Part shown: one piece after another, positions 7,301-59,700 of the stretch
Position numbering within the stretch: position 1 is the first letter of the stretch
Layout of the letters: the number at the start of each line of letters is the position of its first letter
Source of the DNA: Perkinsus marinus ATCC 50983
Lineage: Eukaryota; Perkinsozoa; Perkinsida; Perkinsidae
DNA: 64,000 nt
NCBI RefSeq assembly: GCF_000006405.1
Contig: NW_003208655.1
Coordinates: 631,715 to 695,714 of the forward strand
Direction of reading: 5' to 3'
Position numbers and translations under genes: made by a program
The notes under the pieces: model-generated
What the model was told of the DNA's origin: nothing
Database searches by the model: none
Seen by the model: the letters and a program-made list of their open reading frames with translations, nothing else

Positions 7301-10300
7301 AGGCGAATCCTCTGTGGCAACGATATGAACTGGACCCGACCGAGTTCATCTTGTTCGTGTTGGGAAAGGTAACTGAGGGCGGTGTGGTTGTGGGGGATGG
7401 GAAAATTATGGTTAGGGTAGTATTTAGGAGATTAACCATCGTGACGATGCAGCATTTAGAGTACATGTATTTGTGCATGTAGGTGTGGTTGCATTCACCG
7501 CACTGGGTGAGTGTGGCTTAAGTACGTTTCGTGTGGGGCTACTGTATATGTGGTATAGGGTATTTTCAATAATGGCAGAGTAGGGTAGAACTCCATGATG
7601 AACGGGATGATAATATGAATGACTTGCATTGATCTTCGGTGGTTGAGAAATTTACTCTTGTTTTCGTCTTTAGTCTTTCATTTTTGCGGTTTTTGTATCA
7701 GATTTTGGCGCCGACTGAGCCCATAGAGGCTCCTGGATTAAAGCCTCCGAAGTGGCAAGATCCTGTCTCTACTGATCCCTCTATCCGAGTTGAAGGGCTG
7801 GATAGGCTGCCGAGTGCTAGCGACCTCTACAAGTGAGGTACGTCAGTCGTGGCAGCGATAATATGTTTTGTATTCTTCAGTGGGGACCGTCGAGCTGCTG
7901 ACGTTGCGACGTATCTTCGTACGGCGCAGGTGGCTTGGCTGTTGGAGCACGCGGATGAGTTTGGTTACTCACATGAGGAGAAGAGGAAACTAGAGTGAGT
8001 AGTGGTTGAGAGAGAGATCTTCATTTGAGTGAGAGTTGGGTATTCGCGCAGTATGAAGAATTTAAGATACGCTTTATGGTATCATTTATTTCTTGAATTT
8101 TACGGGGTGCTTCTCAATACCTCGTCCGTTTTGAAATCTTCGCTGTGCGGAGGAATCTTGTTGATTCGTTGGCTTGGGGGTGACGTTTCTTACTTGTGAT
8201 GGAGTTCCCAGTTGCTGAAGGACTTGCTGTCAGATACGTTTTATCACTTAAACACTTTGCATTTAGTATTTTTGAGAACTACGGGGGCCTGGCCTTCGTC
8301 CCGCAGTCTCGTGTGGTTGGTCTGTTCCTAGCCGACGTGGCTCGGGTTGAGCAGGAGTTGGCTAAGCGACAGGGGTTTGATTCGATGAAGGCCGCTTTGG
8401 AGTGGCAGCAGTTGAGGGAGGAGGCGGCCTCGGAAAGGGAGAGGTCTACGAGTGCAGATATAGGTCGGTGAGGTTGTTGTAAATTTTGGTATTGATTTTT
8501 TCCTCGTGAGAAGTGATTCTGCATTGGAAACGCAACTAGTACTACTACCCTCGTGCTATGTTAGAGTAGTGATGAGTGGAAACATAGATGTCTTGCTCGA
8601 TGACATGTAAAATTGGTCGAGTCGGAGTCACTGTGAAGTACTATTCATGAGATGTGGAAAGACTATGAGATGGCAAATTTGAATTGGTTTAGTAGAAGAA
8701 TGAATTCGCGGGGCGAGCGCTTTTTACAATAATCAGGTAGAAGTAGTAGTGGTGATACGTTGGAGTTGAGGTCGGCAAGGTCGGGCAGTGTATCGGATGG
8801 GTACAGCACTTGCAGTAGTGGGGAGGGGGAGGACTCGACGATGGAGGAAGAACCACAGTTTACTGAGGGAGGGTTTATACCCCAGGGCTTCCTGCATCGA
8901 ATGACGCTACAGATGAAACCGGTGGATCACGAGGTAGCAACCGGAAGGTCCCCGGATCGATTCCTGGGAGAGGCATTTTCCTTCTCAGGCGCTCTTACGC
9001 GGTAGTTTACGTAGTAGTGCCCAGTCCGTCCCTGTACCATCCAAGGGGGCTTCCTTATCGAAGTCGACCTTGCCTGATGTGGCCGCTTGCCGATGGTTGG
9101 GCATGCCGTTTACGCTGCTAGGTGAGCGGTTCGGAAGAGATGAAATCTTCTAGGGTTTGATAACAATAAGAAAAATGTTGTTCCCAAAGTGACATTTACA
9201 TGGGAAGCTGATTGAAAAATGTGGAAAAATCTAAACGGGCCCTTCCCTCGAGAGCATTATAGGTTTCTGGATGGTTGTTTGCTAAAGATGATGATAGTTG
9301 TTGGTCAGGACCTGGCGATGTGGCTTCGATGTTGGCCTCTTGCTTGGCAGCTCCGTGGGCAGGCGCGGTAGTGCAGAGTAATACGAGGATGTTACTGGAA
9401 GTGCTGTTACAAAAGCAACAACCTAGGGAGTAGGGTTTTGGGCATGTTTTGCATCTTAGGAAGAGAGTGTATCTTTTGGTAGATATGTTATTGCAGTACT
9501 GTGCGAGTCGTCACAGAATGGTTCGGCTCGGGCTCTGACGAACATTCTAATGAGGCTGTTGGAAATACCCCAGGACAGGACTATCCAGCGCATGGATGTA
9601 GCTGCACTGTTGGAGGAGAAACTAGGGTGAGGCGGACGGGTACGGGGAGGAGTGTCCAGAGGCGTCTCGACAGATATAGTGTGAAGTAAATAGTTATGCA
9701 TATCTAGATCTTTGAGATGGCTTTTATCAATTCGAGAGTAATACGACTATAGCCTACGAAACGCTTCTAAAATGTTGGTGTCAATCGATTTACATTTTTA
9801 TTATGTTGACATTACTCAAGGTGCTGAAAATATTACTTTGCACAACGGTAGTTCAAACATGTTTCTATGTAGACTCGTGATGTGATGGAACAACAGCTGA
9901 GCATTCGACAGCTCTTGCTGCTACTGTGGGGTGCCCTTTTTTCCAATGTTTTGGTTCTGTGATTAGGTACTCTGTCCCTCGAAGAACTGACTATATGGCG
10001 GGTGGGAAGAAGCCGCGGGATAGCTACTACCACGCTTGCAACGTTCTGGCGTCGAAAATACTCAAAGAGAATATGGACCAGTACCTCGCGGTGAAGAACA
10101 GGCTTACTGTGTGCTATAGGTGAGGTCCTCTGGGGAGGATGTAGCCGTGTTGGGGGAATATATGTTCGCTCTCCTTAGTGCCTTCATTGATTGTAGAAGT
10201 TTACGTACCAATTTGGGTAGAAGTGTAGAGAAACCAATGAGAATTTCCTCGGAATTTCCACGAACTGAAGAAGAGATTAACATATTTTCATCCTCCGGGA

Positions 10301-13142
10301 TACACTTGGGCGCACAGGTGAGTTGTTATTCAGAGTGCAAGCAACGGCACCTTTCACAGAGGAGACGAGAGGGCTGGAGGAAGCGGCGATCGCTGCGATA
10401 GCAGTGACCAGGAGACCTGAAGCGACGAGAGACGATTTTGGTGAGTTGAGTTTTATTAAGAATTGTTGATTATGTGTGGTTGCAGAGGAGGCTTTCGAGG
10501 CGTGCCGGATGGCGATCGGATCGGACCGGCGAATAGTGGATCGAGATTGGTGCAAGGAGTTTATGCTGAGGAGCTATGAAACCTTTATGGTGATGATGTC
10601 TTGTTGTGGGCTTAGCGGAGCGAAGCGATTATTGTTTGTGTGTTTTAGGTATTGTCGATTTACGATGAGGTGGTGGGAGATGTGGAGCAGTCGAGAGGCT
10701 GGCTGATGGTGTTGGCGGGCACGGAGGAGCTTCCTGAGGATCCGGTGGCTCTAGTGGAAGTCATTGTGAAGTAGTAGACTTAGAGTATCTTTAGGTTGAC
10801 TTGGCAAGATACGGAATAGGTCCGTTCTGTGATCGGGATATATTTAACTTGATCAGATCGGTGTATCGTTATGAAGAGGACAGGGAACGTATCTTGAATG
10901 ATCCGTTGACGAAGTTGATGTTGAGGAATCCTAAGGGTGAGCAAGATTAGCAAGATTTACGCATCGGACCGAATGTTCAGGTCATGTCAAGCTGGCGTTG
11001 GTCTCTGCTATGGGGGTTATCTCCGAGGGGGCTGAGGGAACTGAACTTGCCGAGACTTTCCATCGCATGCATGAGAAAAGAGGCTTGCAGGTCGTCAGGT
11101 AGCGGGGGGCGGGGGGAATTCTGATTAAAAAAAGGGAAAATCGAACTGAGACTGGAGTTTCACCTGTGATGTGAGAAAACACTAGCGAAATGCAAGTTTC
11201 ACAAAGTGTGGTCGGTCGCGGGGAATATAAATTTAAAACATAAAAGGAATATTATGTTGATAGTATCCTATATTTTTAGATATAAATTACTTATTATTTC
11301 TATATTATAGTTTAAACTTAGTACCATTACTATTTATTTATTAAATCAACCGTTAACATAAATACATCAACGTATGAAACTATATTGTTCCTTGTTATCA
11401 TTAGAGCCGATACGGGAACAGGTCGATCACTAGAGTACAACGCTAGGAGGGTCATAGAGGCGATCAGGAAAATCGATGGTGACACGGAGTGGGGATGGCT
11501 GGGCTATTCACAGGGATGTGCCAATGCGTTGCGAGCTGAGACCACCATACAGACTGGTAAGGAAAAGTTGGAGTTTTCCGACAACTTGGTGATTAATTGT
11601 GAAGTGCTAGAGTTGATATTTTCGACAGCTGATGCAGGAGTTTACCTCTAATGTAAATAATGAGGTTGGAGGTGGAGGTTATCTCTCCCTTTTGGTACTG
11701 AAAATTTGTCATCCTCATGTAGAGTTTCGTAGTAGCCGCGACCGAGGGTCGAACTCGGGATCTCTCAGGTACTCCTGAGGAATACGAGCTGATCCAGGAT
11801 AGACTGATCGGGCGTATGTTGATATTCAGCGCATTCAATGGTTCGGTGCATGGCCAACTTGGTGACGATAAGGTGCAAGCTGTCATCATGGACCTTGAAT
11901 ACTTTATGAAGCTATTACAGGTAGGAAAGATACTTGTTGGAGAATCTTCGCTGTGCGCATGTACTTGTTGTGTTTAGGCCCATTTTTCGTCGCAGTTGGC
12001 GGGCTCGGCGTTGAATCTGTTGACATCTGCTTTGGCGTCTCGTTTGGTAACGGATTTGCTCGTTGGTAGGTAGCCATCATCATTCACGATATAGGGCGCC
12101 CTAAATGAAATGGGGTATTGTCTGTAACTTTAGAATTCAACGAATATCCTCACTAGGAAGATCTTGGCGAGTGGTTTTCAATGGTATTTTTGAAATCTGC
12201 AAGTTACAGACAATACCACATTTTATTTGGGGTATGCTGTAGTTGTTGAAATATATGGATGTTGACCATAGACGAATATTCATGGTTTGATGATAGTATA
12301 TAAAACATACTATCATTGATCTACTATCAGCAAAGCACTTATAGTTTTATACTAATATCGACTTGAAATTCATGTCCTTCGTGGTGTAGGTGTTCAGTCG
12401 TTGACACACGAAGGGGTGTTTACGTTGTGGAGAGACGGGCAGTTTAAACAGAGTACTCCGACGGTGGCGATGAGAGGGGCGGTGCAGAGCAATGTAAAGA
12501 TTCATGTTGCGCACAGCGAAGATTTTTGGGGAATGGTATCTTTGTTATGGTAGGTAACGTTGCCGGAGGTATTGGAAATGTTGAGTAATATGCTCACTAA
12601 GCAGACGATTAATCATGAGCATCACGACACGCAGGTGGGCGGAGGTCTCGGGTTCGATCCCGGCACATGTCGTTTTTTACAGGTTACGATACACGAATGT
12701 GTTTCGCGATCAATCCATGTTCGTAATTCTCATACGGACGTCTTTGCGCGGTCAGGCGTCGATGCGGCTGTGCAGAGGACCCACCATTGGAGCCCTTTAC
12801 TGAAAGTAAGTTGTCTTATATTTTTATCTCAATCTTCTGTCCGTGGACTTGGAATATTTCCGGAGCTTTCTGAGTAGAGTGATTTTTTAATTCTTGAACT
12901 GAATTTTGCAGAATTGAATCGTTTATGAATTTCGCAGTTGTTTTAGTGAATAAGTATTAATGTGGTGGTGAGTGAATTTTGTGACTCGCGACGCAGTTGA
13001 TGATTTTTAGGAGTCGGCCTTCGTGACCACCGAGCGTGACCGTGAAAGACACGTATACGATACCGCCAAAGACCGACACGTCGAGCCGTGGCTCGAGAAC
13101 TTGATCCGTTTCGGCCTGGTGCCATTCGCGGCTGAAGAATGA
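4364..13142 (+). CDS. Large multi-exon protein with C-terminal alpha/beta-hydrolase (lipase-like) domain; 5' end unresolved
   Basis: At least 24 exons can be followed with GT/AG borders. The first clear one is 4364-4487, followed by a large exon of about 1.5 kb ending at 6009. The chain then runs through short exons to 13012-13142, where the TGA lies. The N-terminal two thirds are unfamiliar: beta-rich in the large exon, then helical, with a Ser/Glu/Asp-rich linker near 8760-8850. The C-terminal third, from about 10980, reads as a hydrolase. It has GYSQG (GxSxG nucleophile elbow) at about 11500, THHWSP as a candidate catalytic His near 12785, and a family-like tail at the end. The 7152-7369, 8989-9120 and 11769-11923 exons join in phase. 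It could be two adjacent genes, since I found no stop or start separating them but cannot prove splicing. The true start codon lies upstream of 4364 or was missed. Confidence 0.6.
6019..6200 (+). repeat. Family B repeat (description of the family)
   Basis: Family B is about 165-180 bp. In plus orientation it reads GGTCAACTACATGTGTTGGTG early, a GAAATTTTGGGAAATT-type middle, CACTTCTACCCGAATTCG, then CTGAGCTTAGCTGAGGAAAG and ends near TATATTCCTCCAACACT. No ORF is present. This copy fills most of a hydrolase-gene intron. Confidence 0.75.
8934..8988 (+). other. 55-nt intron built on a sense tRNA-3'-half-like sequence
   Basis: The intron starts GTAGCAACC and ends TTCTCAG, and joins the flanking exons in phase 0. 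Its body contains CCCCGGATCGATTCCTGGG, a T-arm/B-box-like stem and loop, followed by a TTTT run that would fit a pol III terminator. It closely resembles the intron at 42265-42321 in WDR19, sharing GCAACCG, AGGT, CCCGG and the TCGAT loop. Confidence 0.6.
9688..9812 (+). repeat. Dispersed repeat copy 1 (partner 30822-30941)
   Basis: About 120 bp, including ATGCATATCTAGATCTT, GAGATGGCTTTTATCAA and AAACGCTTCTAAAATG, are shared in the same order with 30822-30941 at roughly 90 percent identity by eye. It lies in an intron of the hydrolase gene. Confidence 0.8.
10148..10305 (-). repeat. Family B copy
   Basis: Hydrolase-gene intron; the AGCTGAG palindromic block is mutated. Confidence 0.6.
11150..11205 (-). 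repeat. Family A, truncated end
   Basis: Only the TGGAGTTTCACC end and the first part of the body remain, in an intron of the hydrolase gene. Confidence 0.5.
11715..11768 (-). other. Antisense tRNA-3'-half-like sequence ending at an intron acceptor
   Basis: Read on the minus strand, this has an anticodon-type stem (CTCAG/CTGAG, seven-base loop, partly in the exon) followed by a perfect five-pair T-arm, CCGAG TTCGACC CTCGG. The acceptor AG at 11767-11768 falls inside the anticodon stem, so the exon starting at 11769 supplies part of the tRNA-like fold. No matching 5' acceptor strand was found. Confidence 0.55.
12099..12232. repeat. Inverted repeat with 32-bp arms inside an intron
   Basis: The arms 12099-12130 and 12201-12232 are reverse complements with about three mismatches; the shared core is GGTATTGTCTGTAACTT. 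The 134-nt unit resembles a short non-autonomous transposon and is unlike families A and B. A second small hairpin, TGATAGTAT/ATACTATCA, sits at about 12290-12316. Confidence 0.6.
12634..12682 (+). other. 49-nt intron built on a sense tRNA-3'-half-like sequence
   Basis: The intron runs from GTGGGC to TTTTTTACAG and separates two exons of the hydrolase domain in phase 0. It contains CGGGTTCGATCCCG, matching a tRNA T-arm, and a six-T run like a pol III terminator just before the acceptor. Confidence 0.6.
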
Positions 13143-15764: not shown

Positions 15765-15811
15765 GCACTCGAGAGTAATCAGAAATACATCACAAGAGTT
15801 CTGAAAACGCG

Positions 15812-17649: not shown

Positions 17650-20600
17650 ATGGTAACGTTTCAAGGCCTTTCGAAAACAGATTTGTCAACAGAGGGAGAG
17701 GACTCAGATAGTGCTGTGGGTGAGAAACCCCGATCTCGGATTAAATTACCCCCATTGGGGGAGTACAAATACGGTCGAGTGAAGCCTTCTTTGCTCGGCT
17801 TTCGAACAGCCTCGGGATTCACTGGTGGGATCGTCGGGCATAAGATGTCCGAGGCCCTCACCAAAGTGGTTGAGTCCGATCCACGCTTTATGGAAACTGT
17901 CGTTGTATTCACACAAAAGTTAATAGCATGTAAGTGTCGGGGGAGAAGGGGGGTGGGGGAACTCACTTGAAATCAGGTTCGAGTTTCCAACGAGGTGCGC
18001 CCAAAGCTGAGCGCACGAAGAACCTTACATTGAATCTACTCACGGACATGTTGTGGGCGGTGCTGGTCTGCGTATGGGACAGCGAGTCGATCGATTGGCG
18101 GCGACGGGAAGCCGCCGGTCCTAACGAGGGTCATAAAAGGGCAATGCATGTGTCGGAGTCCGCGCCCTTTCTACCTACAATGCCAGTGGAGGGAGAAAGT
18201 GTGGAGGAGAGAGCAAAGCCGACGAGGAGCTACGCGTATGTGCCTGAGGAGCCTTCTGGTCAACAAGGAGGAAGTGTGAGGAAGGATCTAGGCAAGGCCC
18301 CACGGGGGGACGCTGGTGGCCAAGGTAGCGGGATGAGGAGGAGTGTTTCCTTCGCGAAAAAAACCGGTGTTGTGGAGACTCGATCGACGCCGTCGGCGGC
18401 CAAAGCCACCGCAGCATCAGATGCCCCTATAGCCCCGAGAAGGAGCATCTCCTATGCCTCTGCACTACCAGCGGAGTTTATGGACTCTAGTGGAGGTTTG
18501 AAAATGGGATCCCAAGCTAACGAGGCTTCAATCGAGAAGCAATTGACGGCTAAGATGGTGAGCTGGCCTCAGTACAACCATCCGATGCCGCCTCTTCTTC
18601 ATTCCTCCCAAGGACTATTATATTCAGCGATCGTTCTTTCCTTGGCTTGGGCGTTAATGTTATCAACAGAATGACGTTTACTTTTACAAGTGTTGTGGTA
18701 ACATATCCCCTCTTGCTACACTAGGTAGCTCCGAGAACTGTTTGACCCGACGAGTCTCTATATTGGTATTAGATTGAGAATGAGCTCTGATGTCGATACT
18801 ATGCTCAGTAGTCGCTCTTCCCCTTTATAAATCGGCGTTGTTATCATATGTGTAGCTTCATTCGGTCATTCGTAGATATATTTGAGAAATCAGTACTGGA
18901 CGGAGATAACGGAGTTGCGAGACAAGATGAGGAATATGGCGCCTTACATGATGGATGCAGTGAATGAATGCTTGTTCAACGAGGAGCCTAGATACACGGT
19001 AATAAACACCCACCGTGGGGCTCGAACCCACGACCACAAGGTTAAGAGCCTTGCGCTCTACCGACTGAGCTAGACGGGCTTGTTGGTGAATATAGCATGG
19101 TGTATTTTAGTTCGAACCAGACGAGTTCATGGCGGAGCACCAGTTGGAATACGTCGAAGCTGTGATTCGCGAGAAGACAAAGTTGGTGGCCACAAAATGT
19201 TCCGCTGCGGCAAAGCTCCAAATCGACAAGACGGTGAAGCTCCTGCAAGAGGCTCGAGCCAACTTGATTCGAGTTCAAAAGAAGGTGGCGGATCTCGAGG
19301 CCACCAACGAGGCTTTGGAGAAGAAGGTCGATATTCTAAGGAATCAACTTAAGCAGAGTAAACCTCTTTGCTGCTGGATTTGTAGAGCATTACTCACAGG
19401 TCAGCGGCAGACGGGCACGTCGAGAGGCGGCGGGTCTTCATCGGGGACGGGAGGGGGTACGTCGTCGTCGTCCACGGAAGAGAAGGAAGAGATGGATATG
19501 GGAGAGAGGCTGATTGAGGCTGAGGACCGGATAGCGGAGCTTCAGTTGATGATTAATCGACTAGAGCAGGAGAGGTTCTTGGCAGAGGGAGATGCGGAGG
19601 CGCTGATGATGGCGAAGAGTGGTATGGATGCCATGGGAGCTCAGGTAAAACAAGTCGAGTTGGGCTGGGTTACGATAGAAACACACTCTTACTATATATG
19701 ATTGAAAACATTGGAGTTTCACCCGTGACAGGGAAAAGCATATTTTACAAACTACTGCATATCACCGCGAATATCAGGTTTTTCACACATAGTACTACGG
19801 CACTTCTCGTAAAACGGGTGAACTTCCATTGTTGCAAATAGCATATAATGGAAAAACAATATAGCAAATATATCAAATAGCTTATTATAAGTAATATACG
19901 TTATTTACTAGTGATTACTAGTGACATGAATAGTATTAGGAATGATATTACACACTTTGAAGTATGAGGATAGGAACATATCCGTTGAAATAGCAGTGTG
20001 GTAATACCTAGTGTAGAGCGATTTGATCGATTGTTATGATAGTAAGAATGCTTATCAGGAGGAAACGGCCAGAGTTGCGCGACTCGAGGAGGAGTTGGAA
20101 GAAGCTCGAGCGGAGGCAGCTAGGTGGAAGCAGGCGTTCGAAACGAGTGATTTCAAGCTGAATGTTGCTACGCAGGATTTAGGTGAGTTGAAATGCCCTG
20201 ACTGGGGATCGAACCTGCGTGATGGCAGATGCTCTGCAGAGGAAGTTCGATACTGGTGTGGGTGGGCTGGAAGGTCATTGTAAAGATCTTGAAAGTGAGC
20301 TGGCTGCGACTAGACGAGCTCTTGAGGAGGTAGCCTGGGTGGGAAATACAGATTAGGTCTACTGAGATTCAACTGCGTCCTCTTCATGATCACTGGTTGT
20401 CAGGCTAATGAGGCTTCGGCGAAACGAATAGAAGCGGCCATGAAGTCGTTGCAAGCCGCCAATGGTGAGCTCCAAAGGCAACTAGCTGAAACCAAGAAGG
20501 AGAAGGAGATATGGGAGAGGAAGGCTGAGGTGGCCGAGAGAGAGGCGGAGGCTGCTAGGGAGGCGGCGCTAGAGAATAGGGCGAGAGAGTAATAATGGAG

Positions 20601-21968
20601 GAGGGCGGGATCGAACTTGGGATCTTCTTCATAGAAGTCGGCAGCTCCCCCATTAAGCCGGAATTGTTGCTTTAATTGAGGAGGGGCTCTTTCGTCGTTG
20701 TGAAGTGTAGAATTCAAACTCTCAGATTAGAATGTTCAATTGAAACCTCATACTTCGTTCGGTCAAGCAGCCGAAGAAAAGCCACCATTTTTCCCATCGT
20801 TGGGTTATTTCCAGGCCATCTGCTGTTCCGATCGCCGAGTCTGCTGGGGGAGGCGGGAGGGAGGCTGAGAAGATCAAACAGCTCGAGAGGGAGTTAGCAG
20901 TAATGGTGTTAGTATGGCGTTGGAAATATTGTGTATTCCAGCGGTCTGTGGAGAAGTTGAAGACAGTTCAAGAAAAGCAGGGGGAAGGAGAGTCGGTGAG
21001 TATTAGGGAAGAATGCGAGGAGTGGAGGGAACGTGCGGAACGGGCTGAGGCAGAGTTGGAGAAATTACGGTCAGTTTTGGCGGAAAACGAAGTCGAGATG
21101 GGTGAAGCAAGGGAAGCGGCGTTGAGGAAATCCAAAGGGAGCGCAAGATGAGCAAGATTTGCATCAGATTGGTAGAGAGATTTTACCCGAGGGGNNNNNN
21201 NNNNNNNNNNNNNNNNNNNNNNNNNNNNNNNNNNNNNNNNNNNNNNNNNNNNNNNNNNNNNNNNNNNNNNNNNNNNNNNNNNNNNNNNNNNNNNTGAGAG
21301 CACGAGTTAGGACTTTGCGAGAACGGGAGTTCTTGGCTGTGTATTACGCTAGGGCGGGGTATGAGGCGTTCACTGGCTTTGAAGTGGGGTGGAGTGGTAA
21401 GCTGAGAATAGGGGGGAGGAGGGATGGTGATGAGGAGACAAGGAGAGGTAGTGTTGGTGGTGGACCTGTTTTGAATCTTAGTCGGGGGAACCTAAGATAT
21501 TCTGAGGTTGTTTTTTTTTCAGAGTCGCGTTTGAAGAGCCTGGATGAGACAACTCGAAGACGGCAGATGGTACGCGTACTGTTATAATTATTATATATAT
21601 TATATTTAATATTTTCATTATTGGAGTTTCACCATCCGTTTTACGTGAAGTGGCGTAGTAATACTCTGTGAAAACCTGATAGTCGCGGTGATATGCAGTA
21701 GTCGTGAAATATATTTTTTACTAGTGTTTTTCATATCACTAGGATGGTGACACTCCATTGATATTAATACTTGGGCAACTCCGCTCCATCTGCCACCTCC
21801 CTGTCGTAGGTTGGATATTCGAGCACACCTCAACTTCATAATGTTGCTGGATTTTATGCAACCGTTCCTACTCAGAGGACTCCGAATCGATCAGGCTTCC
21901 TTCGGTGAGTTGGTGTTGTTGTTGGTTGATAAGTGTTATTTCATTTTATTGTTTCAGCACACCCCTGA
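17650..21968 (+). CDS. Long coiled-coil protein (structural/cytoskeletal type), interrupted by an assembly gap
   Basis: The start is the ATG at 17650. The first exon ends at the GTAAGT at about 17931 and is followed by a long exon to about 18556 with Ser/Pro/Arg-rich low-complexity sequence. Further exons include 18884-18998, 19111-19360, 19400-19645, 20041-20182, 20229-20330, 20400-20587, 20815-20896, 20939-21140, 21295-21411 and 21814-21907. From about 19110 the protein is dominated by heptad-like sequence, for example [14 protein letters not shown] and [16 protein letters not shown], typical of rod-forming cytoskeletal or centrosomal proteins. The exon 20229 joins in phase when the acceptor at 20228 is used. 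The last exon closes quickly at the TGA 21966-21968. The 100-N gap at 21195-21294 probably removes coding or intron sequence. No specific family is recognised. Confidence 0.6.
18999..19110 (+). other. 112-nt intron that houses a complete antisense tRNA gene
   Basis: The donor GTAATA follows the exon ending PRYT and the acceptor TTTTAG precedes the exon starting FEPDEF, in phase 0. The 73-nt tRNA-Lys occupies about two thirds of the intron on the opposite strand. Confidence 0.7.
19007..19079 (-). tRNA. tRNA-Lys (anticodon CTT)
   Basis: Read on the minus strand, the 73-nt sequence folds into a full cloverleaf. The acceptor GCCCGTC pairs with GGTGGGT using three G-U pairs. The D-arm is GCTCAGTCGGTAGAGC, the anticodon loop is CTCTTAA with anticodon CTT, and the T-arm is GTGGG TTCGAGC CCCAC. 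The A-box TAGCTCAGTCGG and the B-box GGTTCGAGCC are both intact. It lies antisense inside an intron of the coiled-coil gene. Only a short T-run follows the 3' end, so termination is not obvious. Confidence 0.9.
19711..19831 (-). repeat. Family A MITE-like element (description of the family)
   Basis: Family A is about 125-130 bp with ends TGGAGTTTCACC and GGTGAAACTCCA. One half holds GTTTTACG..GTGGCGTAAAAC, itself an inverted repeat. The centre is CGCGATATTCGCGGTGATA. The other half has the palindrome CACTAGTG and CATATCACTAGG. There is no ORF. Plus orientation is defined with the GTTTTACG half first. This copy lies in a coiled-coil gene intron. Confidence 0.8.
20183..20228 (-). other. 46-nt intron built on an antisense tRNA-3'-half-like sequence
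   Basis: On the minus strand it contains GCAGGTTCGATCCCC, a T-arm-like/B-box sequence. On the plus strand the intron runs GTGAGT to GGCAG and joins two coiled-coil exons in phase 1. The stem pairing is poor, so it is a decayed fragment. Confidence 0.55.
20588..20814 (-). other. Intron containing an antisense tRNA-like sequence with A- and B-box resemblance
   Basis: About 20597-20670, read on the minus strand, has GGCTTAATGGGGGAGC (A-box and D-arm-like), a weak anticodon arm with a GAA-like loop, and AAGTTCGATCCCG (B-box). The acceptor stem does not pair. It is the longest of the intronic tRNA-like pieces apart from the intact tRNA-Lys, and probably a tRNA pseudogene. Confidence 0.45.
21195..21294. 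other. Assembly gap (100 N)
   Basis: Exactly 100 undetermined bases lie within the coiled-coil gene, which is the conventional size for a gap of unknown length. Confidence 0.99.
21621..21759 (+). repeat. Family A copy
   Basis: Full-length copy in the intron before the last coiled-coil exon; the right end is changed to GTGACACTCCA. Confidence 0.8.
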
Positions 21969-22482: not shown

Positions 22483-22867
22483 GTCACACAATGCCAACTA
22501 TATATCTTATATGATAGTAATAGTTGGCATATATTTATGATGGTAATTTGGAAAAACCCATGTTGACAATATTTAGTAATATGGATTTCAGCTCCTTATT
22601 ACAGGCCTCGAATTCACCAGAAATTATCTACAGCATCTATTATAGTATAGTCCTACGGGCCGGTCGAAACCACACGAATTCGTTATTCGAAAAAAAAATT
22701 CCACCGAAGCGTGTTGAGTATTTTTGTTAGAAACGTATCCTTCATAGTGAGTAACGTGAATATGTCAACAACAACAACAGGGGAGAAATGCCTGCTGAGA
22801 TATGTGTGTCGAAGTATAGAGTTCCTCACGTTCTTGACCGAGGTAGTAGTGGTATTATGATGTGAAA

Positions 22868-27800: not shown

Positions 27801-27811
27801 CCAAAATAAAA

Positions 27812-28070: not shown

Positions 28071-28073
28071 GTT

Positions 28074-28725: not shown

Positions 28726-28751
28726 AGTAGGTCAGCCTTCGTTGGTGGTTG

Positions 28752-41461: not shown

Positions 41462-44400
41462 ATGGTACTTCGTCCTCTCCTCACCTTGAAGGAAGAGTAT
41501 TTCGGTTCGACTAGAGTGATGTTCCGATGGGACCCCTCGGCCTCGCGTTTGGCATGCATCCCTGCTGCTAGACCTAGCAACCTGTTTGTATTCACCTCGA
41601 GTGGTGAAATTGAAAGAGTGAGATATTTCTACTGCGCAGTTGGTCAATATTGCTTTTATTAAGGACGTTATGCTTGAAGAAAGAGACAGTCCAGTGAGCT
41701 CATTTGAGTGGGATAGGACGGGAGATATCCTGGCCTTGATACAGAAGGTCAGTTATTGTATGAATTCGCCATGTTATGGTATGAATATTATTGGTTTTCG
41801 TCGTGTACAGCAACAATCTTTACTCCCAATACACAATCATTAGTATCAGCTATATGCTCTTGCCTCATGTATTGCTATCAACTCATTCGTATATAATCAT
41901 CCCGTTGAGGAGGACACTGCAGTAGTTGCTGAAACAGTGGTGGGAAAATGCACTTAGTCAATTGAGTGCGTAGGTGACGATATGAAAATTCTGAGGAAAT
42001 TATAGTTGGTTTCTGTATTAGTATACATATTTTCGTACTGAAGTTTAAGGGGACTTCTGAGTTTAGCTAAGGGAAATAAGTATATATTCCAACACTGGGC
42101 TTGAGCGTTGTTCGGTCGTAGGGCACGGCAAAGGTCACGATTTACCACTATAACGAAGATAGATTGGAGATTGTTGATTGCTCGGGAGAAGATCCTTCTT
42201 TTATCGCATGGAATAGGATTGGACCACAACTGGCCATTGGAATGTCCAAAGGGAATATCAGCATGTGAGCAACCGAGAGGTTCCCGGTTCGATCCCTGGT
42301 GAGGGTATTATTATTATATAGATACAACTCAAAGAGCATGGAAAGGCAGTTGATAGCAGGCAAGCATGGTCGTATGATAACCTGTGGTGCATGGACCCTT
42401 CGGGGCCTCCTCATGCTCGGCAGTGAAGACAGGATCATCTCCCTGAGTAAGGCATAGGAGTTTTATTCGTTTTACGTGAAGTGGCGTCGTAATACTCTGA
42501 TAAACTTGATATTTGTGATGATATGCAGTAGTTGTGAAATATATTTTTTCACTAGTGTTTTTCATATTACGGGTATCTTGTGGAATGCGAAGCTGATGAA
42601 TATCTGCGAAAAAATGCACATGGACAACATGAAAATTGTGAGGAAATTTTGGGAAACATTCCTTGGTTTTTATACAGTTTTTTTAGCGAATTTTCATGAT
42701 GTTGTGACGCAAATTCTGAGGTCAGCTGATGAAATTAATAACATAGCTTAACACTGTTGGAAGAAATTGTTACATGCAGATGTTAATTGCTCACTTTATG
42801 AGATGAGATATTCCCAATATAATTTAGGTGATTCTGAAGGAGAAACGCTACGTCAGACAATGCTACGCTCCGCCCCGACTAGCATGAAAATCTCCGATGA
42901 TATTCTGTATGGCAATGAGAGTGATAACAGCATGTTTATCTCTATGACGGCACTCATCCATTAGGCAAAAGTGTATTTGAAAAGGGCAATTCAGTGACCA
43001 AATGCTGTGTGCGCACGGCGAAGGATACGCTTACTGTGTTGGAGATCGATGGTATGACGGTATTAGCAACTATAAAGTTGACTCAGAAGTAAGAGAGTGA
43101 TCCGATGGGTGAGGGGATGAACGGTCACAGGTACAGGTCTATAGTTGACTTTGGTTGGTTCGGTGATGAACAGCTTTGTATAGGATATGTGGGTGAGTCG
43201 GGGAGAGATGCTCTGTTGCATATTGTTTACTATCGTATTTGCTATTAATTCTACGAGTGTATTTTTCTGCTCGAGTAGCATTTTTTTCCAGCATAGGAGT
43301 TTGGCATCTCAGAAATGAGCGGTCAAGACTTCTGACGGGAAAAAATTCACATGGATAGTATAGGTATAGATTCGGCCGGAGTATATGGTAGTGGTTAATA
43401 GTAGTTGATGGCGTAATTCGTGTAGTATTATTATAACAAGTGTGTTATTAATTATTTCGATTGTTGCATATCCGGACCTATTGTGTATCTTTTGTGAGGG
43501 GACCTTGGATACTAGGTGGACACATTGTCGTGACGTCGAGCCGAGGTGATGAGGCTGGTCAGGAGTTGTTCCAAATGAAACCACTATCAAGCTTGGATGC
43601 TCTGGCTCTCTGTACGTGTTTTATTACCTATACCACACTTCGATCACTTTCCAGCAGGTTCCGTACCCTCGAAAACGGGAGGCTTCTCAGCCCTGTCGGC
43701 AGCTGTCGCGGGTGACGGTTGTGTTAAATTGATAGATTTAATACAGCGGAGCGAAGAATCGGATAAAACGATTACTGTTGATGACGATGAGGAGAAGGGG
43801 GGCATTGTGTCTGATTTGGTCTTTTCGAGAGCCGGGCAAACTATCACTTTCAGTGAGTCGTAGTGAATTTACTGCTTTTCTCGCACACTGGTTTTATATA
43901 GCAAATGCCAACGTAGAAGTAAATGTCGTCGATAAGGTATCATGTAAATGTGTATAAATGTCGCAAGGAATTTACGCATGAAAATTCACAAAACGAACTC
44001 AATAAGCTGATTTCAATCTCAGCGTAGACCGCTGTGATCACCACATCGCGGTCGCTGTTTCGGTCAGGTCTCTCGACCGGATGCATACGTTCTTATCTGC
44101 TGCGACTTCCATCGATCATCACAGCTAGAGGCTCTACTGTGGCTTGGATGAGCAGCCTGAGGGAAATTACTTTCATTGATGTTAATGTTGATAATGGGAA
44201 AGATAGTAAGTGGAGTATGCTTGTGGTTTTTACATGATGAATCTTGAGTAGTATCTTGAGGTTGCCTATTGGAAGATACGGAATAGGTCGGATTTGATAC
44301 CATCATTATTTTCAGTGGGGGAGAATATGCATGTGGTCAACTACATGTGTTGGTGACAATATGTAAATTCTGAGTTGATCTTTATACACTTCTACCCGAA

Positions 44401-47400: not shown

Positions 47401-50400
47401 CCATATTCCTAGCAACACATGTAGTTGACCATGTGCATATATTGCCGCCGCACTGGTTCGTAGATACCGAGGATGGAGTCGTTATGGACGATGACGAGAA
47501 GGAAATGGTGGTGGTGCGGTTAGCAGCACTTGGGAAATTGGGTAGGTTTTGTAGCTTGTGTGAGAGCTATTTTCTCTTGTATGAGAGTTAACTGCGAGAC
47601 GGTCATATATCTTGTATTTTGTGTATACATTATAATCAGTTCTCTACAGAATTTGTGAGCGCACGAGACTGATATAGCAAAGCAAATACTTTGAGGAAAA
47701 TCATATGGGCAACTTTACCATCCGAGTGTTTGGCTGTGTATAGTGCATAGTGTCGAGTAGAGTTGTGAGAATTTTCGTAACTTCGGGGAAGGGATGGTTA
47801 CATTGTGGCAAAGTATGCACATGGTCAACCACATGTGTTGGTGATGACAATATCACGAGGAAAGTTTATCTGCACGGTCCGTATATATTCTCCCAATTCG
47901 TATATACACTCTAGTGAGGAAACTTTCGAGCTCAGCTGTGGAAAGCGATTACATATTTTGTAGCACACGATGTATCAACAGTTGTTTGCTACGGTGGTGA
48001 CATAACGGGAGATATTGATTTCGTATTAGATCTGGCTTATCGAATGTGTATGTCGATGAATGACGACTTAGAGAAGAGGGAGATGCTCCTGAGGACTATT
48101 GGAAGGCAAGCAGTAGAGATACTTGAGATTAAGTGAGACGTGTTGTTGGTTGTTATTGAGATGGATGATGGTTTTTTAATCAGAATCGCAGTATTAGCTT
48201 ATAGGGCATGCGGTGACGGTGATAGGGTATCTTTTCTGGAGCGAATTGTTCAGCTGGAGGAGGTGCCGATGTTGCAGGGATATTTGAAAGTCTTCCTTGG
48301 ACAAAAACAAGTGAGATGAATATAAGGAGTATGTGTTTTTCCGGAAAAAAATCGGAAAATTGAATTTTTTCGTCAAGTTTTCAAGTCATTATTGAGCTCA
48401 AACGTTGATGGATTGTTTAGATCTACTAGCCGGTTTGGCTTTAGAGTATTTAGATTCCATTCAGATCTATTTGAAATCGTAGTGAAAACTTGAATGATTT
48501 TTTGATGAAGTGATAAGTTATCATATGATGAAATGAATCGGTCATCGCCACGGCTACTGATATGTGGAGATGAGCGAAATCATGACATCCCCTGGGGCTT
48601 CCGACGTAGTTCACTTGCGCTGAGACAATTGCGACCGGTTTGAAAGGAAATATTCACCTAAGTGTTAGTAAATTGTCCGACATATATGCTTATGAAGCTC
48701 GGGTCGATCATCTGCATGGAAATAGTAGTTGGTTGGATTTGCATCATTTTGGAAGAGTTGAAGTACTGTGTTGTTTTCAGGCTGCCATAGAGACTTTTAT
48801 AAAGGCTGGAGTGCCTCGAGAAGCACTTGAGATTATGTGTGATGCCCAGATGTGGGGATCTGCGAAGGGCTTGGCCATCACCATCGATAGGAGTAGACTG
48901 CCGTTAATATATCGTCAAGTTGGAACGGTAGGCTGAAGTGGAGTACTCACTTACAATGGAGTTTCACGACCCTAGTGATATGAAAAGCACTAGTGAAAAA
49001 TATATTTCACGACTACTGCAAATCCCCGCGAATATTGGGGTTTTCACAGAGTATTACTACGCCACTTCACGTAAAACGGGTGTCGAAACTCTAATGTATG
49101 GGTGAGGGTTTGAGTATGCGTACTGGTCTGAAATGTGAGAAAGGCAATTTCGATTCAAAATTGCCGCTTTCACAGCTCTGAAAATAGGAGTATTTTTTTC
49201 CAGAAAAAAATTTCCATTTTAGACTTGAGATGAAATATCGCTTGTATGTTGTGGATGTTGAAAGTGATCGATTATTAGATGCTTGAGGACAAGGGCGACT
49301 ATAAAGGAGCTGTGGTGAATTATAGGGAGGCGGTCAGAGAGGTGGAAGGAAGGGCTGATGATTTCCACATGGGTGATGATGATCATGAAGAAGAATGTAT
49401 ACAGGCTTGTTATGGTGGCATGGCTCGGTGAGTGGGACGAGACGTGTCACCATTGATAGTGTCACCATGGAATAAGTCCTGTATCGCATTAACAAGGATC
49501 GTTCCTTTGTGGTGCATTCAGCTATGGTTATGAAATTGGATATCATCATAGAGTTTCACCCGCGATATAAAAAACACTAGTAAAAATCGCGTTTTCGGCG
49601 GCTTTCACTTTCGAGAAAAACGCCAGTTCTACGTGTTGTGAAACTCCAATACGTGTTGGTATTTATGCGCTGTGGGCAGCTGTTGTGAAGGTGCCTGTGT
49701 TATTGTGGTGATTACGATGAAGCTGCAAAGATATGTGAGGACCTAGAGGAGGAGGATGTGCTTATGGAATGCGCTGTTATTATGGAGCGTATGAAGCAAT
49801 ACTCTCATGCTGGGAGGTGAGGGGAAAAATGACAGGTGCAGGGATCGAACCTGGGTGGTGGCGGTGTTGTTTTAGAATACATGAGCGTTTGGGTAATGTG
49901 GAGAGAGCATGTGGACTGTATATTCAGGATATGGACTTTGATGCTGCCAAGCCTATGATGGAGGAAGTAATTCACGGGGCCGATCTGTTGTGATATAGTG
50001 GAGTTGCACCTGTGATATGAAAAACATATTTTACATTTCACGAGAAGAAGCATGCGAGCAGTGATTAACACGTGAAAAGGAGCGAAATTCGCGAACTGTT
50101 ATTAATTGATTTCATATCGCGAATGTCGCGCTTCGCGCAGGGTGTATTACGCCACTCCACGTAAAACGGGTGAAACAGCTGAGGAAACCGAAATGACTAT
50201 ACGATAAAGAATTTTCCATAATTTCAGAATATGCGATTATCACTGGGATGGTAGCCTGAAAATTAGTTTAACTCTGATTCACTGAAGCAGCCATGTATAT
50301 CGGGAGTTGGGTCCCTAGCTCGGGCATTTTTCGGTTGATTTTCGCGATGGAGTTATTCGCGTTCTTAGCAGAAACACAAGCTTTCTATTGGCGTGCAAAG

Positions 50401-53400
50401 TAGTTGAAAATTTAAGTGAGCTTATAGGCTCCGCGTGATCGGCGACTCGGTAGACTTGAATACTACTTTAGATTTCAACGCCGAAATTGCACCTGCTGTA
50501 TGCAAAGGCGAAAGAAACCCGAGGATTTTATAAGGAAGCTGAAAGGAGCTACGAGAAGGGAGGGGATATGGATTCGATCGTCCGAATGTTGCTAAATGAG
50601 AATCAGCTTAACGAGCCAAGGAAGGCAATGGAGATGATCAGGAGAGGTGGGTGAGGTTGGTATGAGAGTTTTTGGAAATGTTTCTCGGCAATAAATAATA
50701 AACTGTTGCGGTCGTTTATCACGAAAATATATTTCTGTGTTGGTTCTGGCCGTTTTTGTGTAGGTAACCAAATTTTTCTTTTTTTGGTTTTTTTTCGTTT
50801 TTTCCCTTTTTTCGTTCTTCCTTTTTTTCCTTTTTTTCGTTTTTTTCGTTTTTTTCCGTTTTTTTCCGTTTTTTTCCGTTTTTTCTTTTTTTTTTCGTTT
50901 TTTCCGTTTTTTCCGTTTTTTTGTGTAGGATTGGCGCCTTCGATGGTAGCAGCAGAGATGGTTGCGGACTACTGTAGACGAGTTGGTGATATCTGTGGTT
51001 CGATTGAGTTCTTGACAAGAGCACACTTGTATGATATGGCTTTTGAAATTGCAATGCGGCATGACAAGATGGCTGTATTCGAGAAGGCCTTGGCTAGGGT
51101 GAGAAAGTGCGGGATGATATTGTTAAGATGAGCGGAGCGAAATTCAGGGGGGTATAAAAAATACTGATTTTTTCTGTGCAAGTTTGAGATGGATGTCAGT
51201 GTCACATCCATGCTGGTGATAATACGTGTTCATGTTGGGCTTGAAGAAATATCGGGTGACAAATTGACAATAATAGATTATCATTCTTGGATGCGACGCT
51301 GACATAATGGCATCCGCATTTATCAAACTTGCACGTGTAGTAGTATCGGTAAAAGAGGTCACATTGAAAGCAAGCATGAAAACATGGGGAAGAGCACGCA
51401 ACTAAATGTTGGATCTCAAATATGGCATTCTCCCTATCAACGTAGATGCGAAGTTGCAGGGGCAATTGATAGGTGTGCGCTAGTGAAAATGGAGTATACG
51501 TAAAGACCAGTATATGTGAATACAAGTATAGTGTATAAGAACCATATGTGTATGATTGTGATATATGTTGAATTGAAGATTTCCTATTGGATAGAAATAT
51601 TGGAGTTTCACCCTGGTGATATGAGAAACACTAGTGAAAAGTATATTTCACGACTACTGCATATCAACGAGAATATCGCCGTTTTTCACGTAAAATGCTG
51701 GTGAAACTCCATTATGATGATATGACTATCTATAGATTAATTTTTATATATGTTTCGATGCAGAGAAGAGAGCGACAGTATAGGGAGTAGATGAGCAAAA
51801 CTGATGGGGTGTGACTTTGATTTCACTCGTCAATGATCTCGAAAATCTTCTAGAGATGGCTTGGGTGTTTCCAGAGCTTTGCTGCGGCATGGCGAGGCGA
51901 AGCGAAGCGAATTATTCATTTTTCTATTGAAATTAGCTTTTTGAAAACGCGAGGATGTCGTTGTAACGAAAGAATTTAGTGACAAATCTGTAAGAGTACT
52001 ATGGTCAGTTTTAACACCATCTTCAGAGAGTGATCATTTTCTCTCAGAGTCGCGAGTCGACCGAAATGGTACAGAAACAGTATAATAATATTGCTGGTTA
52101 TTATAGAGAAAGAAATCTACCACTTGAAGCGGCGAAGAATTATGTTTTGTGTGAAGAGTAAGGAGAGTGTTGGAGGAATATGTGTTCACCCGTTTTACGA
52201 ATGATAAATGTATGACGCTCATCGGGAGAACATCAGCAGCAGATGGCGAGTGTTGCAATATATATTCGTTTTTCTCAGCTGAGCTTAGCATAGGAGCTCA
52301 CATACGAATTCGGGTAGAAGTGTACATAAGTTAACGAGAATTTCTCAAGATTCTCTCCCAGAATTTTCATTTTCTCACCGACACATGTAGTTGACCATGT
52401 GCATGTTTTATCATACTTAGTGAGGTGGGCTACTACAGTGGGAGGGGGGCGTAGATACAGAAATTTTTCGATTTGTGTGACGGCTGAGCGTAAACTCGTA
52501 ATTCGACACTTTACGGTATTGTTTATCCGCATTTTTTCACGGTGAAATACTATATTGGTTTTAACTATGTATCGGTTTGGTCGAGAAATTACAGAAAATG
52601 ATAATAGTGTTGTTGTAGAAGTCGTATCACTCGATGGTGGTGCCAGGTATGAGCTCGCATTGGATCTATGTCTATCGTTGGAGCGCAGGAGCAGTATTGG
52701 TGGTGAGGAGGAAGAGTTGTGGGAGTTGCCGGCTCATATGGAGCTCGCTATTGATATTGCTGGGTAGGCTTCACAGTGTGGGATTACATGCACATGTTAT
52801 AGTATGAAAATTCGGGGAGAAAATCTCGGGGAATTTTCAGTGGTTTCTGCACACTTCTACCCGAATTCATGTGTGAACTTCATGATATTCGGGGAAACTC
52901 TCGAGCTCGGCTGAGGAAAGCGAGCATATATTACAACACCCACTTGCTGGCGTATATTGTTCGTTACGCTCGATTGCCCTGTAATACGTTACTCTCACTA
53001 TTTGTACAATCTTCATTGCGATTCACTCGTATACAGGGTAATGTGGTTTGTTTGTTTTTTCTGATTTGTTTATCAAACCTGAGTGTACTGTAGTAGTACT
53101 ATTAATGTTGGGTCGATATTCTCCACAGCTTGTATGGTTATTATATTGTTATTGCCCATTCAGGAGTAGGTTGATTTATATAGGGTTGCTGTTTGCTATA
53201 CTGTGTATATCAGATGATAAATTTAATGCAACTATCACGATGACAATTATTTTCACAGTATCAGCCTAGAATATTCTGAAGACATTTGCGATCTCGAAAG
53301 GGATGTAGAATGTGGCGTTCAGGCGCTGTCGTGATGAAGCTTTGGTCAATCGTCTGGTGGACCATTTACTACGGGCGAGCGCAGATGTTGAAGACCACCA

Positions 53401-56758: not shown

Positions 56759-59700
56759 TTCGCTGTTCACGGAGAAGTATCTCCTGAGGAGAGCGTGGGG
56801 TACGTATATACCTCAGCTGTTCTTCGCGTTGACGCCAGCCCAGAGTCAATGGCAAGGAGAGGACCCTCGGGGAGCCCCGGTGGTGGGTGTTATGTGGAGT
56901 GATGCTAATGCTAAGCATATCCGATATGAATGTGATGTTCCTGGTAATTTGGGAGGGGCGCGGTAGGGACTGGCATATATTTTGTCATTTATTTATTATC
57001 AATCATTGTAATTTTTTTTGATAATTTTGTAAGAAAATGTGGAGTATGTGAAAATGTTATGTATTTTCACAGACTCAGAAAATTGTCGAGCGCAGATCTG
57101 AGTTGGTTGTCAGTAGTATAGCACAAGAATTTTGAAAATCATCGTTTCATCATCAGCGGTTCTCCTTCAAAATTAGCTTTCCTCAGAGATCAGGACTATC
57201 AAATTCGTTGTTATACTCGACCGATCGCTGTTGGTGACCGACAGTTTTTCTGTATGTATTGAATCTAGATAGTACTGGTAATGGTTATCATAAAACGGCT
57301 ATGTCATACGAGGCTCAACTGTTATTATATGTAACTTCTCCAAGAATTTTGAAATTGTCGAAGTCGTGTGGAGCGGGTGGTTGCGGTTGGGGAATTTTCA
57401 ATCGATTTGAAATTCTCCAATCTCCAATTGTATATGAATCTGATGGATAATCGCGAATTCCCTCACGACTTCATGCGTGTGAGTGTATTCCTCTTTAGAG
57501 AAATCTGGAGTAACCTTTCGGTACGCTGAGCATACACCCAGTCGTGGAAAGTTCCTCGCCGAAGACCGCAAACTTCGGGCGTCCATTTTCATTGACTGGA
57601 GAATTCAAAACGGTGCCATTGACATCAACACGCATGTTGTTAACCGATTCGCAAACAAAACCATGAAAATTTATTTTTATGTTGATGACGTTGGAGGAAG
57701 CCTCGGTGACTATCATCTCACTGGTGTCCCGGAGGGATCTTATCATCGTTTGGAGTGGCCAACCGTGGATGAGTTTAATGTGGCTGAGTTGGTACAGTTG
57801 AGGAAACGTAAGAAACGTAAGAATGGCAAGATTTTGCCGGGATTTGATCTCGTGGATGGAGGAGCGGCGTGTGAGGGGCGGCGGCTGTGTGTGGGCCTTT
57901 GGGTGGTTGAAGTTGCTGAGAACGCCACGTTGGGGGTCCGGGTGGAATCGAAGGGAATTGTGGGGCTGGATGGCGAGGAGGAGGAGTATGGGGTGGCAGT
58001 GGGGAGGAGGTGGCCGGATTTGAAGAAGGAGATGTATCACACGGTGGCTAGTGTAGTTGGTGGAGTGGCGGATACGAGAGGAGGATTGGTGATGAAAGTA
58101 AGGGGTTGGGCTCGCATTGATAAGGTCGTCGGATCGAATCCCTAGTTGGACATCGAGTTTTCCCTTCTCACTCGAATCTGAGAAGTGAGGGATTTATGGT
58201 ATCAGGATGGCCTCCCTGTGAACCACAGCCTCATTTCGATGGTGCCGAGCCGGTCCTTTTTCCCGAGAGGATTCCTCTGGGACGAGGGTTTCCATTTATT
58301 GCTTATGAAGGAGTGGGACTCGACCAGAGCCCTACAGGTTGGCATGAATATTCCCCCTCTTTTCCTCATGGTGAAGTAGATACTGCTTTCATGGTTGGGT
58401 ATGCAAGACTACTCGAGTGGCTGGATACCCAGGGAGGCCGCTATTGGTCCACGACAACAGTCGAGGGTCCCTCCACAGTTCCTTCCTCAAGACCGCGCCA
58501 TTGCTAACCCGCCGGCTCTGCTGTTCATCATAAGGAGCCTCCTGGCTGGCGGCTCGGATGATGGGAAATTCGAGACGGTGGAGTCGGTCGAAACGATTAT
58601 GCGATTACTCGTGGCCCCGCATTTGGACGCCTGGTGGGAGATCTGAAATATTTTTGGGTGATAAGTTTACATCAGGTACGACTTTCTGGTCACCACCCAA
58701 GTATCGCCATTCTCGACCCCTTCCGTGAGGTGCCCTCGGTGGAAGGGCCGTACTGCTGCCCATAACCTCGCTAGTGGGCTGGATGATTACCCTCGAGGAG
58801 TTCTCGTTGGTAGGCCCCCCTCTCTAGTGGGAGGAGCACGAGTTGTTGCTATTCTCAGACGAAGGTTTGGAGTGCCATGTTGACCTGACGTCTTGGATGA
58901 TCCTTTTCGCTGATACCATGCTGAGGATGAACAGCACTGCCGTTGGTGTTAGGTGGGGTCAGGCTAGGTGAAGGAAAGGAGGAATTGTTGCAGACCTGCG
59001 AGGTTCTGGTTGAGTGAGAAGGCACGTCTGCAGTCACTGTTGAGGACTGTGATGGTCGATGCTAAGGGGCGTTTCTCAGACCTCATAGGGAGGCAAATAG
59101 TAGAGAAAAGCAAAGGGTAGGTGCTTGGTCGAAGTCGTTGTAGCTGGATGGTCTCGTATTCAGTTCGATCCTATCTCGACCCCCGTGGGTGAGTCGTCAT
59201 AGTGGGCAGTGTTCACCCATGGACGGTATAGAGTGTGACCCCTACAGTGATGCCCCGTGCTGCAGTCCCTCTGGTTGGTGTGGGGGTAGCCGTGACCATT
59301 GTGAGTGTGAAGGTTGCATAAAGTAGTCGCGCTCCTCTCTCCCCCTCCTCCTCACTGTGGAGTCGTCGTTCAGATACGTTCCCTTGGAGGAGAGGATGAA
59401 ATACGACAAGGCATTCGCTCGGAAGTACACCGTTACTACTAAGCCAGTTCATTCACCTCATGTCGGTTACGTTACCATCTTTCCGCTAATTCTTGGCCTC
59501 CTCGACCCCATCAAGGACCGTCAACTTATCTTAAACTCCGTGGATGTGATCAGCAATGACATCCTAACGCCCTACGGTATTTCTTCTCTATCTAAGTCGG
59601 ACCCCCTCTTCCGTATGGGGGAAGATTATTGGCGAGGGAAGATATGGGGTAACATAAATCTGCTGGCCATAGGAGCTCTTCGTCACTACGCCACAGTCAT

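Follow-up and report, generated by a model that had tools for sequence, protein, structure and literature searches.

A short tRNA-3'-end-like element as a candidate introner in Perkinsus marinus

Element-bearing introns in the window and beyond

The sequence analysed here (the window) is a stretch of 64,000 nucleotides (nt) of the genome of the oyster parasite Perkinsus marinus ATCC 50983 (C201:631715-695714). It contains, among others, a predicted gene at 3425-13142 and the IFT144/WDR19 gene, and it carries copies of an element of ~36 nt that resembles the 3' end of a tRNA and fills several short predicted introns of unrelated genes almost completely. Our reading, to which we assign a probability of roughly 0.6, is that this dispersed element acts as an introner in P. 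marinus. Introners are copies of one dispersed element that serve as introns, and are known from aquatic protists including the dinoflagellate Amoebophrya (PMC9860276, PMC7789003).

Element copies were scored with a weight matrix of 36 columns, built from 92 exact-core copies, and introns were predicted with an ab initio gene model. The model was self-trained on a 264-kb sample (the window and the fetched loci L018-L037, all on contig C201) and later on all loci longer than 900 bases, with L009-L017 left out; its counts are approximate. Known introns were overlooked or misplaced by it (42265, 12635), and it assigned some element sites to exons in conflict with homology (11746). In the 264 kb, it predicts 347 introns with a mode at 40-60 nt. 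This is in line with the P. marinus introns mapped by cDNA, which range from 39 to 1622 bp, most of them below 100 bp (PMC3101222). Without any knowledge of the element, the model found the introns at 8934-8988, 20183-20228 and 49817-49875 exactly, together with three element introns of the sample (in L021, L031 and L033).

Two element introns interrupt the IFT144/WDR19 gene, on the forward strand like the element-bearing window introns described next. The first, of 57 nt (42265-42321), holds a sense copy (42278-42313; 33.9 bits). Exactly these 57 nt, which include an in-frame stop, are missing from the IFT144/WDR19 protein of P. chesapeaki, and the ab initio models missed the intron. The second, of 59 nt (49817-49875), holds an antisense copy (49824-49859, minus strand; 37.9 bits) and is predicted exactly also when the element is masked; the protein is contiguous across it in both Perkinsus orthologs and in the solved IFT144/WDR19 chains listed. 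The 55-nt intron at 8934-8988 is almost entirely sense element (8946-8981; 29.5 bits). It too is predicted exactly under masking, and in P. olseni and P. chesapeaki the protein runs on without interruption at this place. At 20183-20228, a putative intron of 46 nt with ab initio support surrounds an antisense copy (20188-20223, minus strand; 34.0 bits), and the model with the element masked chose 20183-20239 (57 nt). A further sense copy (12643-12678; 36.1 bits) occupies 48 nt at 12635-12682. These 48 nt are missing from both sister-species orthologs, are in frame and contain no stop, and the ab initio models took the donor, not the acceptor. The segment is best read as an intron, possibly as an in-frame insertion. 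The original prediction, which was made from the letters of the window, had proposed these five introns. The sister-species proteins bear out those at 8934-8988, 42265-42321 and 49817-49875, the start given as 12634 was off by one, and 20183-20228 stands as an ab initio call.

Two longer introns carry the element at one end. The one at 11557-11768 (212 nt, ab initio), whose ends agree with the P. chesapeaki protein, holds an antisense copy beside the acceptor in its last 41 nt (11728-11763, minus strand; 19.0 bits); the masked model wrongly called this end exon. The other, at 20589-20814 (226 nt, ab initio), has an antisense copy at its 5' end (20590-20625, minus strand; 25.9 bits). A separate 46-nt intron at 20589-20634 was considered and rejected, as a frame check favours the end at 20814. 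Longer examples had also been proposed at 11715-11768, which is the 3' end of the 212-nt intron, and at 20597-20670, which begins just inside the 5' end of the 226-nt one. Another, at 58098-58182, found no support: an end at 58182 gives an in-frame stop, one at 58206 keeps the frame, and the 60 matrix matches listed, out of 61 of at least 8 bits, do not include the site.

Element introns are also predicted elsewhere in the genome. Of the 164 short introns predicted in the 264-kb sample, 8 contain an element copy scoring at least 14 bits, versus none in shuffled and reversed interiors, some of the copies having helped to build the matrix. Four of the 15 translated element sites were picked as recognisable genes, all of them encoding conserved enzymes. 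Protein support was obtained for a 62-nt element intron in GTP cyclohydrolase I (L066), for one of 51 nt in an AAA ATPase (L061; two-residue gap beside the junction) and for one of 56 nt in methionyl-tRNA synthetase (L021; one-residue gap a few residues on). In cystathionine beta-synthase (L042), the joining across a 49-nt element intron reads on like the homologous chain, the homology query having used a longer predicted intron and not the 49-nt version. Protein comparison supports eight predicted element-made introns, of which one (12635-12682) could be an in-frame insertion instead. Further candidates lie in L001, L031, L033, L053 and L068; the 54-nt intron of L001 joins what we take to be an adenylate-kinase-like motif. 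The 14 element introns measure 46-62 nt, of which ~36 nt in each are element, and 327 of the 415 other short introns measure 42-52 nt.

Two other motifs recur in predicted short introns. The motif TGATACCACAC has 177 matches in the genome versus 25 when reversed, and ATACCACA or its complement occurs in at least 11 of the predicted short introns listed. Their places include 43612-43657 in the window, 4920-4971 and 5874-5922 in L025, and 4595-4639 and 7627-7676 in L033; they are possibly another introner-like family. The motif CGGAGCGA lies in six predicted short introns, namely 10590-10648, 22843-22885 and 51099-51147 in the window, 1639-1683 in L031, 2334-2383 in L033 and 9839-9904 in L023.

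Sequence, abundance and tRNA likeness of the element

The exact core of the element, GGTTCGATCC, has 1,199 matches (545 and 654 on the two strands) in the P. marinus assembly (54.46 Mb in 347 contigs, to which all genome-wide counts refer), versus 48 (21 and 27) for the reversed pattern. At 14 bits or more, the weight matrix finds 29 matches in the 264-kb sample and none in its reversed sequence. The proposed occurrence of a tRNA-3'-end-like core in short introns of unrelated genes is thus real and above chance, and both orientations are indeed represented, among the matrix matches as well as among the introns. Once two true tRNAs and one match that reads another in reverse are set aside, 26 of the 29 remain. 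These extrapolate to ~5,400 copies per genome (Poisson range 3,500-7,800), a figure to be read with the sample copies having partly served to build the matrix and with a single contig that may be atypical. If 20-30% of 3,500-7,800 copies were whole introns, about a thousand introns or more would, by extrapolation, be element-derived.

The boundaries of the element were defined on 95 core copies from the fetched loci and the window, with L009-L017 and any site repeating an earlier site's 20 letters on both sides left out. The common part is ~36 nt long, with sharp boundaries, and the consensus around the core reads AGGTC[CG]C[AG]-GGTTCGATCC-C[CT]G[GC]AN..[GA]C-A-TTTTT. The conserved part corresponds to nt 44-73 of a tRNA, followed by a T-run, without CCA. 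Counted from the core, information is limited to the span from -8 to +18, and single positions outside it hold at most 0.14 bit. The T-run ending noted earlier is recovered, with T at 62-66% in positions +12 to +14. The original prediction spoke of tRNA halves, a term that does not fit a common part starting in the variable loop, at nt 44.

For five tRNA types of P. marinus, over 500 copies have been reported (PMC3706591), and a tRNA family search of the genome gave at least 63 matches (63 of the 4,410 first-look candidates scored). True tRNAs hardly explain the excess of the core, since none of the 95 core sites overlaps an ARAGORN tRNA. An extended 5' form reaching the anticodon stem, AACCGRRAGGTCSC, has 17 genome matches versus 1 and represents a small subfamily only. 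A fixed 5' end at GTAGGGAGGTCSC gained no support (5 matches versus 5). A search of the copy flanks for a common upstream region returned only small groups, for example L004/L054/L057/L083; the flanks of separate copies are mostly unrelated, with few copies sharing longer ones. A dispersed AT-rich repeat of ~70 nt (around TTTCCTCAGAATTTTCATATTGTCACC) was observed at ~41970-42016 and 42623-42677 in the window, and also in the element flanks of L047, L050, L051, L052, L053, L055 and L061.

The likeness to a T arm raises the question of a conserved fold, and the original prediction had offered a structured cassette, kept for splicing, as one explanation. In that case a T-arm fold would be retained because it helps the splicing of tiny introns, in agreement with the T-arm letters of the consensus and with the position of the element close to the splice sites. 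The pairing of the T stem was evaluated in 92 copies (three near-identical ones of the 95 removed) against the expectation from column composition. Pair 49-65 is formed in 45 copies (42.2 expected, p 0.30), pair 51-63 in 39 (36.6 expected, p 0.30) and pair 50-64, the nearest to covariation, in 64 (60.1 expected, p 0.07). The 42 genome matches listed with letters, some of which are also in the fetched set, have 49-65 paired in 24 cases and unpaired in the other 18 (Fisher p 0.35). A conserved T-arm fold was rejected on these grounds, the stem pairs being no better than column composition. With no covariation in the variable stem pairs, and with only 8 of 164 short introns carrying the element, the cassette is disfavoured to the point of being hardly credible.

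The 5' part of a tRNA is missing, as had been claimed. A 5' acceptor strand is found upstream in 44 of the 95 copies versus 41.9 after shuffling, which is no excess. An A-box upstream shows no clear excess either, with at least 7/8 letters matched in 22 of 95 copies versus 16.0 shuffled and 8/8 in 2 versus 0.9. In a permissive Rfam scan, RF00005 was found in the window only at the true tRNA, and not at all in 20 element loci (of 117); full tRNA pseudogenes were consequently rejected. The same 20 loci gave three tmRNA matches far under the gathering score (the best, in L061, at 15.8 bits versus 47); two of these cover the core, a result that any T-arm-like sequence would be expected to give. 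Given the lack of A-box excess, 5' acceptor strand and T-stem covariation, the element is not a retained T-arm fold, and not a recent copy of a tRNA either.

A B-box core without stem covariation is what would be expected for a protein-DNA site. The element could then be a functional DNA motif, such as an extra TFIIIC (B-box) site in chromatin organisation, that has arisen often and is tolerated in introns, and copies between genes and in long introns would suit such a site. It would leave unexplained the fixed discriminator base plus T-run, as well as the whole short introns of normal length in unrelated genes, and short linked blocks of columns (+3/+4, described below) are unexpected for a simple site. 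We therefore regard this explanation as unlikely.

Placement of the copies and evidence for insertion

The placement of the copies was determined with element centres masked, so that they gave no information to the gene model. After removal of two true tRNAs from 77 copies, the set comprises 75, of which the unbiased sample contributed 26 and loci chosen for the exact core 49. The model puts 12 of them into short introns and 36 into long ones, with 10 exonic and 17 intergenic, and the respective shares of bases in the unbiased sample are 6.1%, 31.2%, 40.0% and 22.7%. Exons are thus depleted (10/75 versus 40%, p 4e-7) and short introns enriched (12/75 versus 6.1%, p 0.002). Enrichment in introns over intergenic DNA, whose absence the original prediction had named as refuting it, is there but mild (48/65 versus 62% expected, p 0.03). 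The masked model is conservative, as the copies at 12651 and 42286 and those of L001 and L042, which it placed in long introns, have homology or motif support for a short intron.

Splice signals accompany the element. A strong GT-AG pair, 40-75 nt apart, surrounds the core in 27 of 93 copies (two of the 95 were too near an end) versus 8.3% of 1,509 controls (score of at least 9, p 5e-9). Within ~30 nt, GTRAG lies upstream of sense copies in 8 of 95 versus 2.9 for permuted words, and downstream of antisense copies in 11 of 95 versus 4.9, with no excess in the wrong places. A relation between left-side type and orientation reached p 0.03 only after the choice of a threshold and was not used.

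From these data we infer that the element introns arose by insertion. Insertion explains the data best, since the 14 element introns, at 46-62 nt, fall in the size class of the other short introns, which favours this part of the predicted intron gain. The copies moreover lie in unrelated genes, in both orientations and mostly in unrelated flanks. It could be argued that fragments of tRNA pseudogenes or of short interspersed elements (SINEs) were inserted in pre-existing introns, with no gain of introns. The resemblance to tRNA, the location of about half of the copies (36/75) in predicted long introns and a 104-nt intron in L006 would agree with this. A copy inserted in an existing short intron would, however, give at least 80 nt, and the 46-62 nt observed are not those of a short intron plus 36 nt, in a candidate search that ended at 80 nt. 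The lost T-stem pairing and the tRNA covariance model, which finds the true window tRNA and nothing in the 20 element loci, also speak against such fragments, and we consider this origin improbable for the element introns.

Several results weigh against the element being an introner. The masked model puts only 12 of the 75 copies in short introns versus 36 in long ones. The excess of splice pairs depends on the threshold (70/93 versus 71.9% at a score of at least 4), and that of GTRAG becomes small at the widest search span (10 and 15 of 95 versus 9.4 and 11.4). An intron score based on coding flanks reaches at least 15 in 10 of 56 copies versus 15.2% of controls and at least 20 in 4 of 56 versus 3.6%, although this is a poor test, its control being inflated by exons. 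Cores at most 40 nt from the ends of long introns number 11 of 27 versus 8.3 expected, which is not significant (p 0.12). In L006, an intron of 104 nt contains the element, as would be expected from insertion into an older intron, and such insertions may occur too. Fourteen joined junctions were searched in the own genome and none was found empty, in a search that sees only close DNA copies. Three of them have second copies, each with the intron judging by its span (C281:332047-332215 for L042, C243:81226-81395 for L053 and C324:260018-260185 for L068). Direct repeats of at least 8 nt lie beside the element in 3 of 95 copies versus 1.0 shuffled, and nearby ones of at least 5 nt in 16 versus 8.2 +- 2.9, a weak excess; neither is significant overall. 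Inverted repeats beside the element show no excess in the 95 copies. In two loci, L045 at 496 and L097 at 96, 9-nt direct repeats (CGCCCCAGC; CAGCAAAGG) flank the element as a target duplication would. No carrier for the element was identified.

The linkage between columns counts on both sides. By mutual information, 18 of 325 column pairs are linked at p <=1/300 versus 1.1 expected, which favours the introner reading. The strongest links (+3/+4, -7/-6, -7/-5 and -6/-5) each stay within one side of the core, and those crossing it (-5/+11, -1/+4, -5/+2 and -4/+10) are weaker. Simple descent would not normally leave so little linkage across the core. The pattern, with unlinked stem positions on the two sides, resembles a re-joining of halves at the core and could point to DNA transposons of the Dada type, whose footprints or one-ended events could leave tRNA 3' parts elsewhere or join them there. 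Five tRNA-targeting Dada families exist in P. marinus, and in zebrafish their one-ended junctions join different tRNA genes (PMC3706591). The element shares with Dada the species and the tie to tRNA genes; Dada transposons are several kb long and lie inside tRNA genes (PMC3706591), unlike an element of ~36 nt with 0 of 95 copies in tRNA genes. The flanks of different copies have nothing in common except a few longer repeats, so that no transposon end is shared beside the elements, and some weaker links extend across the core. We therefore consider a Dada origin very unlikely.

Comparison with known systems, possible mechanism and neighbouring features

The P. marinus element resembles introners in that one sequence family is found in many introns of non-homologous genes and takes up almost the entire intron (36 nt of the 46-62 nt of the 14 introns). 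It differs from them by a much shorter common part, which is tRNA-3'-end-like instead of transposon-like, and by the lack of an inverted-repeat excess or clear target duplications. In the first two respects, it appears to work like an introner.

SINEs derived from tRNAs are dispersed, tRNA-like sequences that contain a B-box and no CCA. All of this also applies to the P. marinus element, which in contrast has no A-box excess and no tRNA 5' part; its copies lack a common tRNA-unrelated body or tail, and the element makes up nearly the whole intron. The ETC/COC sites of yeasts are extra TFIIIC sites, with a B-box core and no tRNA gene. The element has such a core too, likewise without a tRNA gene. 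Unlike ETC/COC sites, it has a fixed downstream acceptor-like part and a T-run, and it forms introns.

Most introners are consistent with DNA transposition, and the main text of the survey that reports this contains no mention of Perkinsus, tRNA or SINE (PMC9860276). No report of tRNA-derived introns in Perkinsus appeared among the openly licensed papers listed by the literature searches, which is not proof of their absence.

The following mechanism can be proposed. An element made of the variable loop, the B-box-containing T arm, the 3' acceptor strand, the discriminator base and the T-run would have spread through the genome. Where it landed in an exon, the element and a few flanking letters would have become a complete GT-AG intron of ~46-62 nt, spliced out at once or soon by means of a nearby GT and AG in either orientation. 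In sense, the T-run would serve as the polypyrimidine tract before the acceptor, and in antisense its complement would lie just after the donor. The same element, where no new intron was needed, would be present in long introns and between genes. Because the element resembles an RNA polymerase III (Pol III) B box and terminator, our guess is that its copies were spread by the reverse transcriptase of another element from short Pol III-type transcripts with a U-run at the end, the upstream sequence not being carried along. Template switching, or a joining of halves, could account for the weak linkage across the core. The joining of halves is testable since P. marinus has Dada transposons that insert in tRNA genes (PMC3706591).

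A more far-reaching version would see in the element a very small introner that inserts in either orientation, accounts for about a thousand introns of ~50 nt and has re-assorted the two sides of its core, the creation of introns from tRNA 3' ends being ongoing or recent. This version remains tentative, and we give it a little less than an even chance.

The origin of new spliceosomal introns is an old question, which introners, mostly DNA transposons, answer in some lineages (PMC9860276). If the introner reading is true, a tRNA-3'-end-like unit, hardly shorter than its intron, would add a different source of introns and show how little sequence makes a splicable intron in both orientations. 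The system is testable because proteins of two sister species are already public.

Three further copies of the element lie in the window, all on the plus strand. The one at 1818-1853 (21.4 bits) is outside the predicted genes and intergenic in both gene models. A copy at 50297-50332 (22.3 bits) is located in a long predicted intron (49967-50534), whose true end comes before 50534, as homology puts an exon at 50472-50648. The copy at 33632-33667 (31.8 bits) belongs to a repeat with other genomic copies (L084, L085): its surroundings are those of L084, and the flanks of L084 and L085 align. It lies between two retroelement-like frames. Such long frames extend over 31808-39326, upstream of the IFT144 gene (start near 41462), and one of their relatives is named reverse transcriptase. 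Over 72% of its length, the frame at 34883-39244 matches a predicted P. marinus ATCC 50983 protein with 100% identity; its P. chesapeaki and P. olseni relatives are at 33-34%.

The gene at 3425-13142 has 25 predicted exons, and its protein is 78-80% identical to those of the sister species. The other 11 of the 13 matches listed are at 32-38%, and two of them come from metagenome-assembled genomes of Deltaproteobacteria or Proteobacteria. No Pfam or NCBIfam match was found for the two proteins scanned. This gene is a candidate for a transfer from bacteria, in which case all of its introns would be gains.

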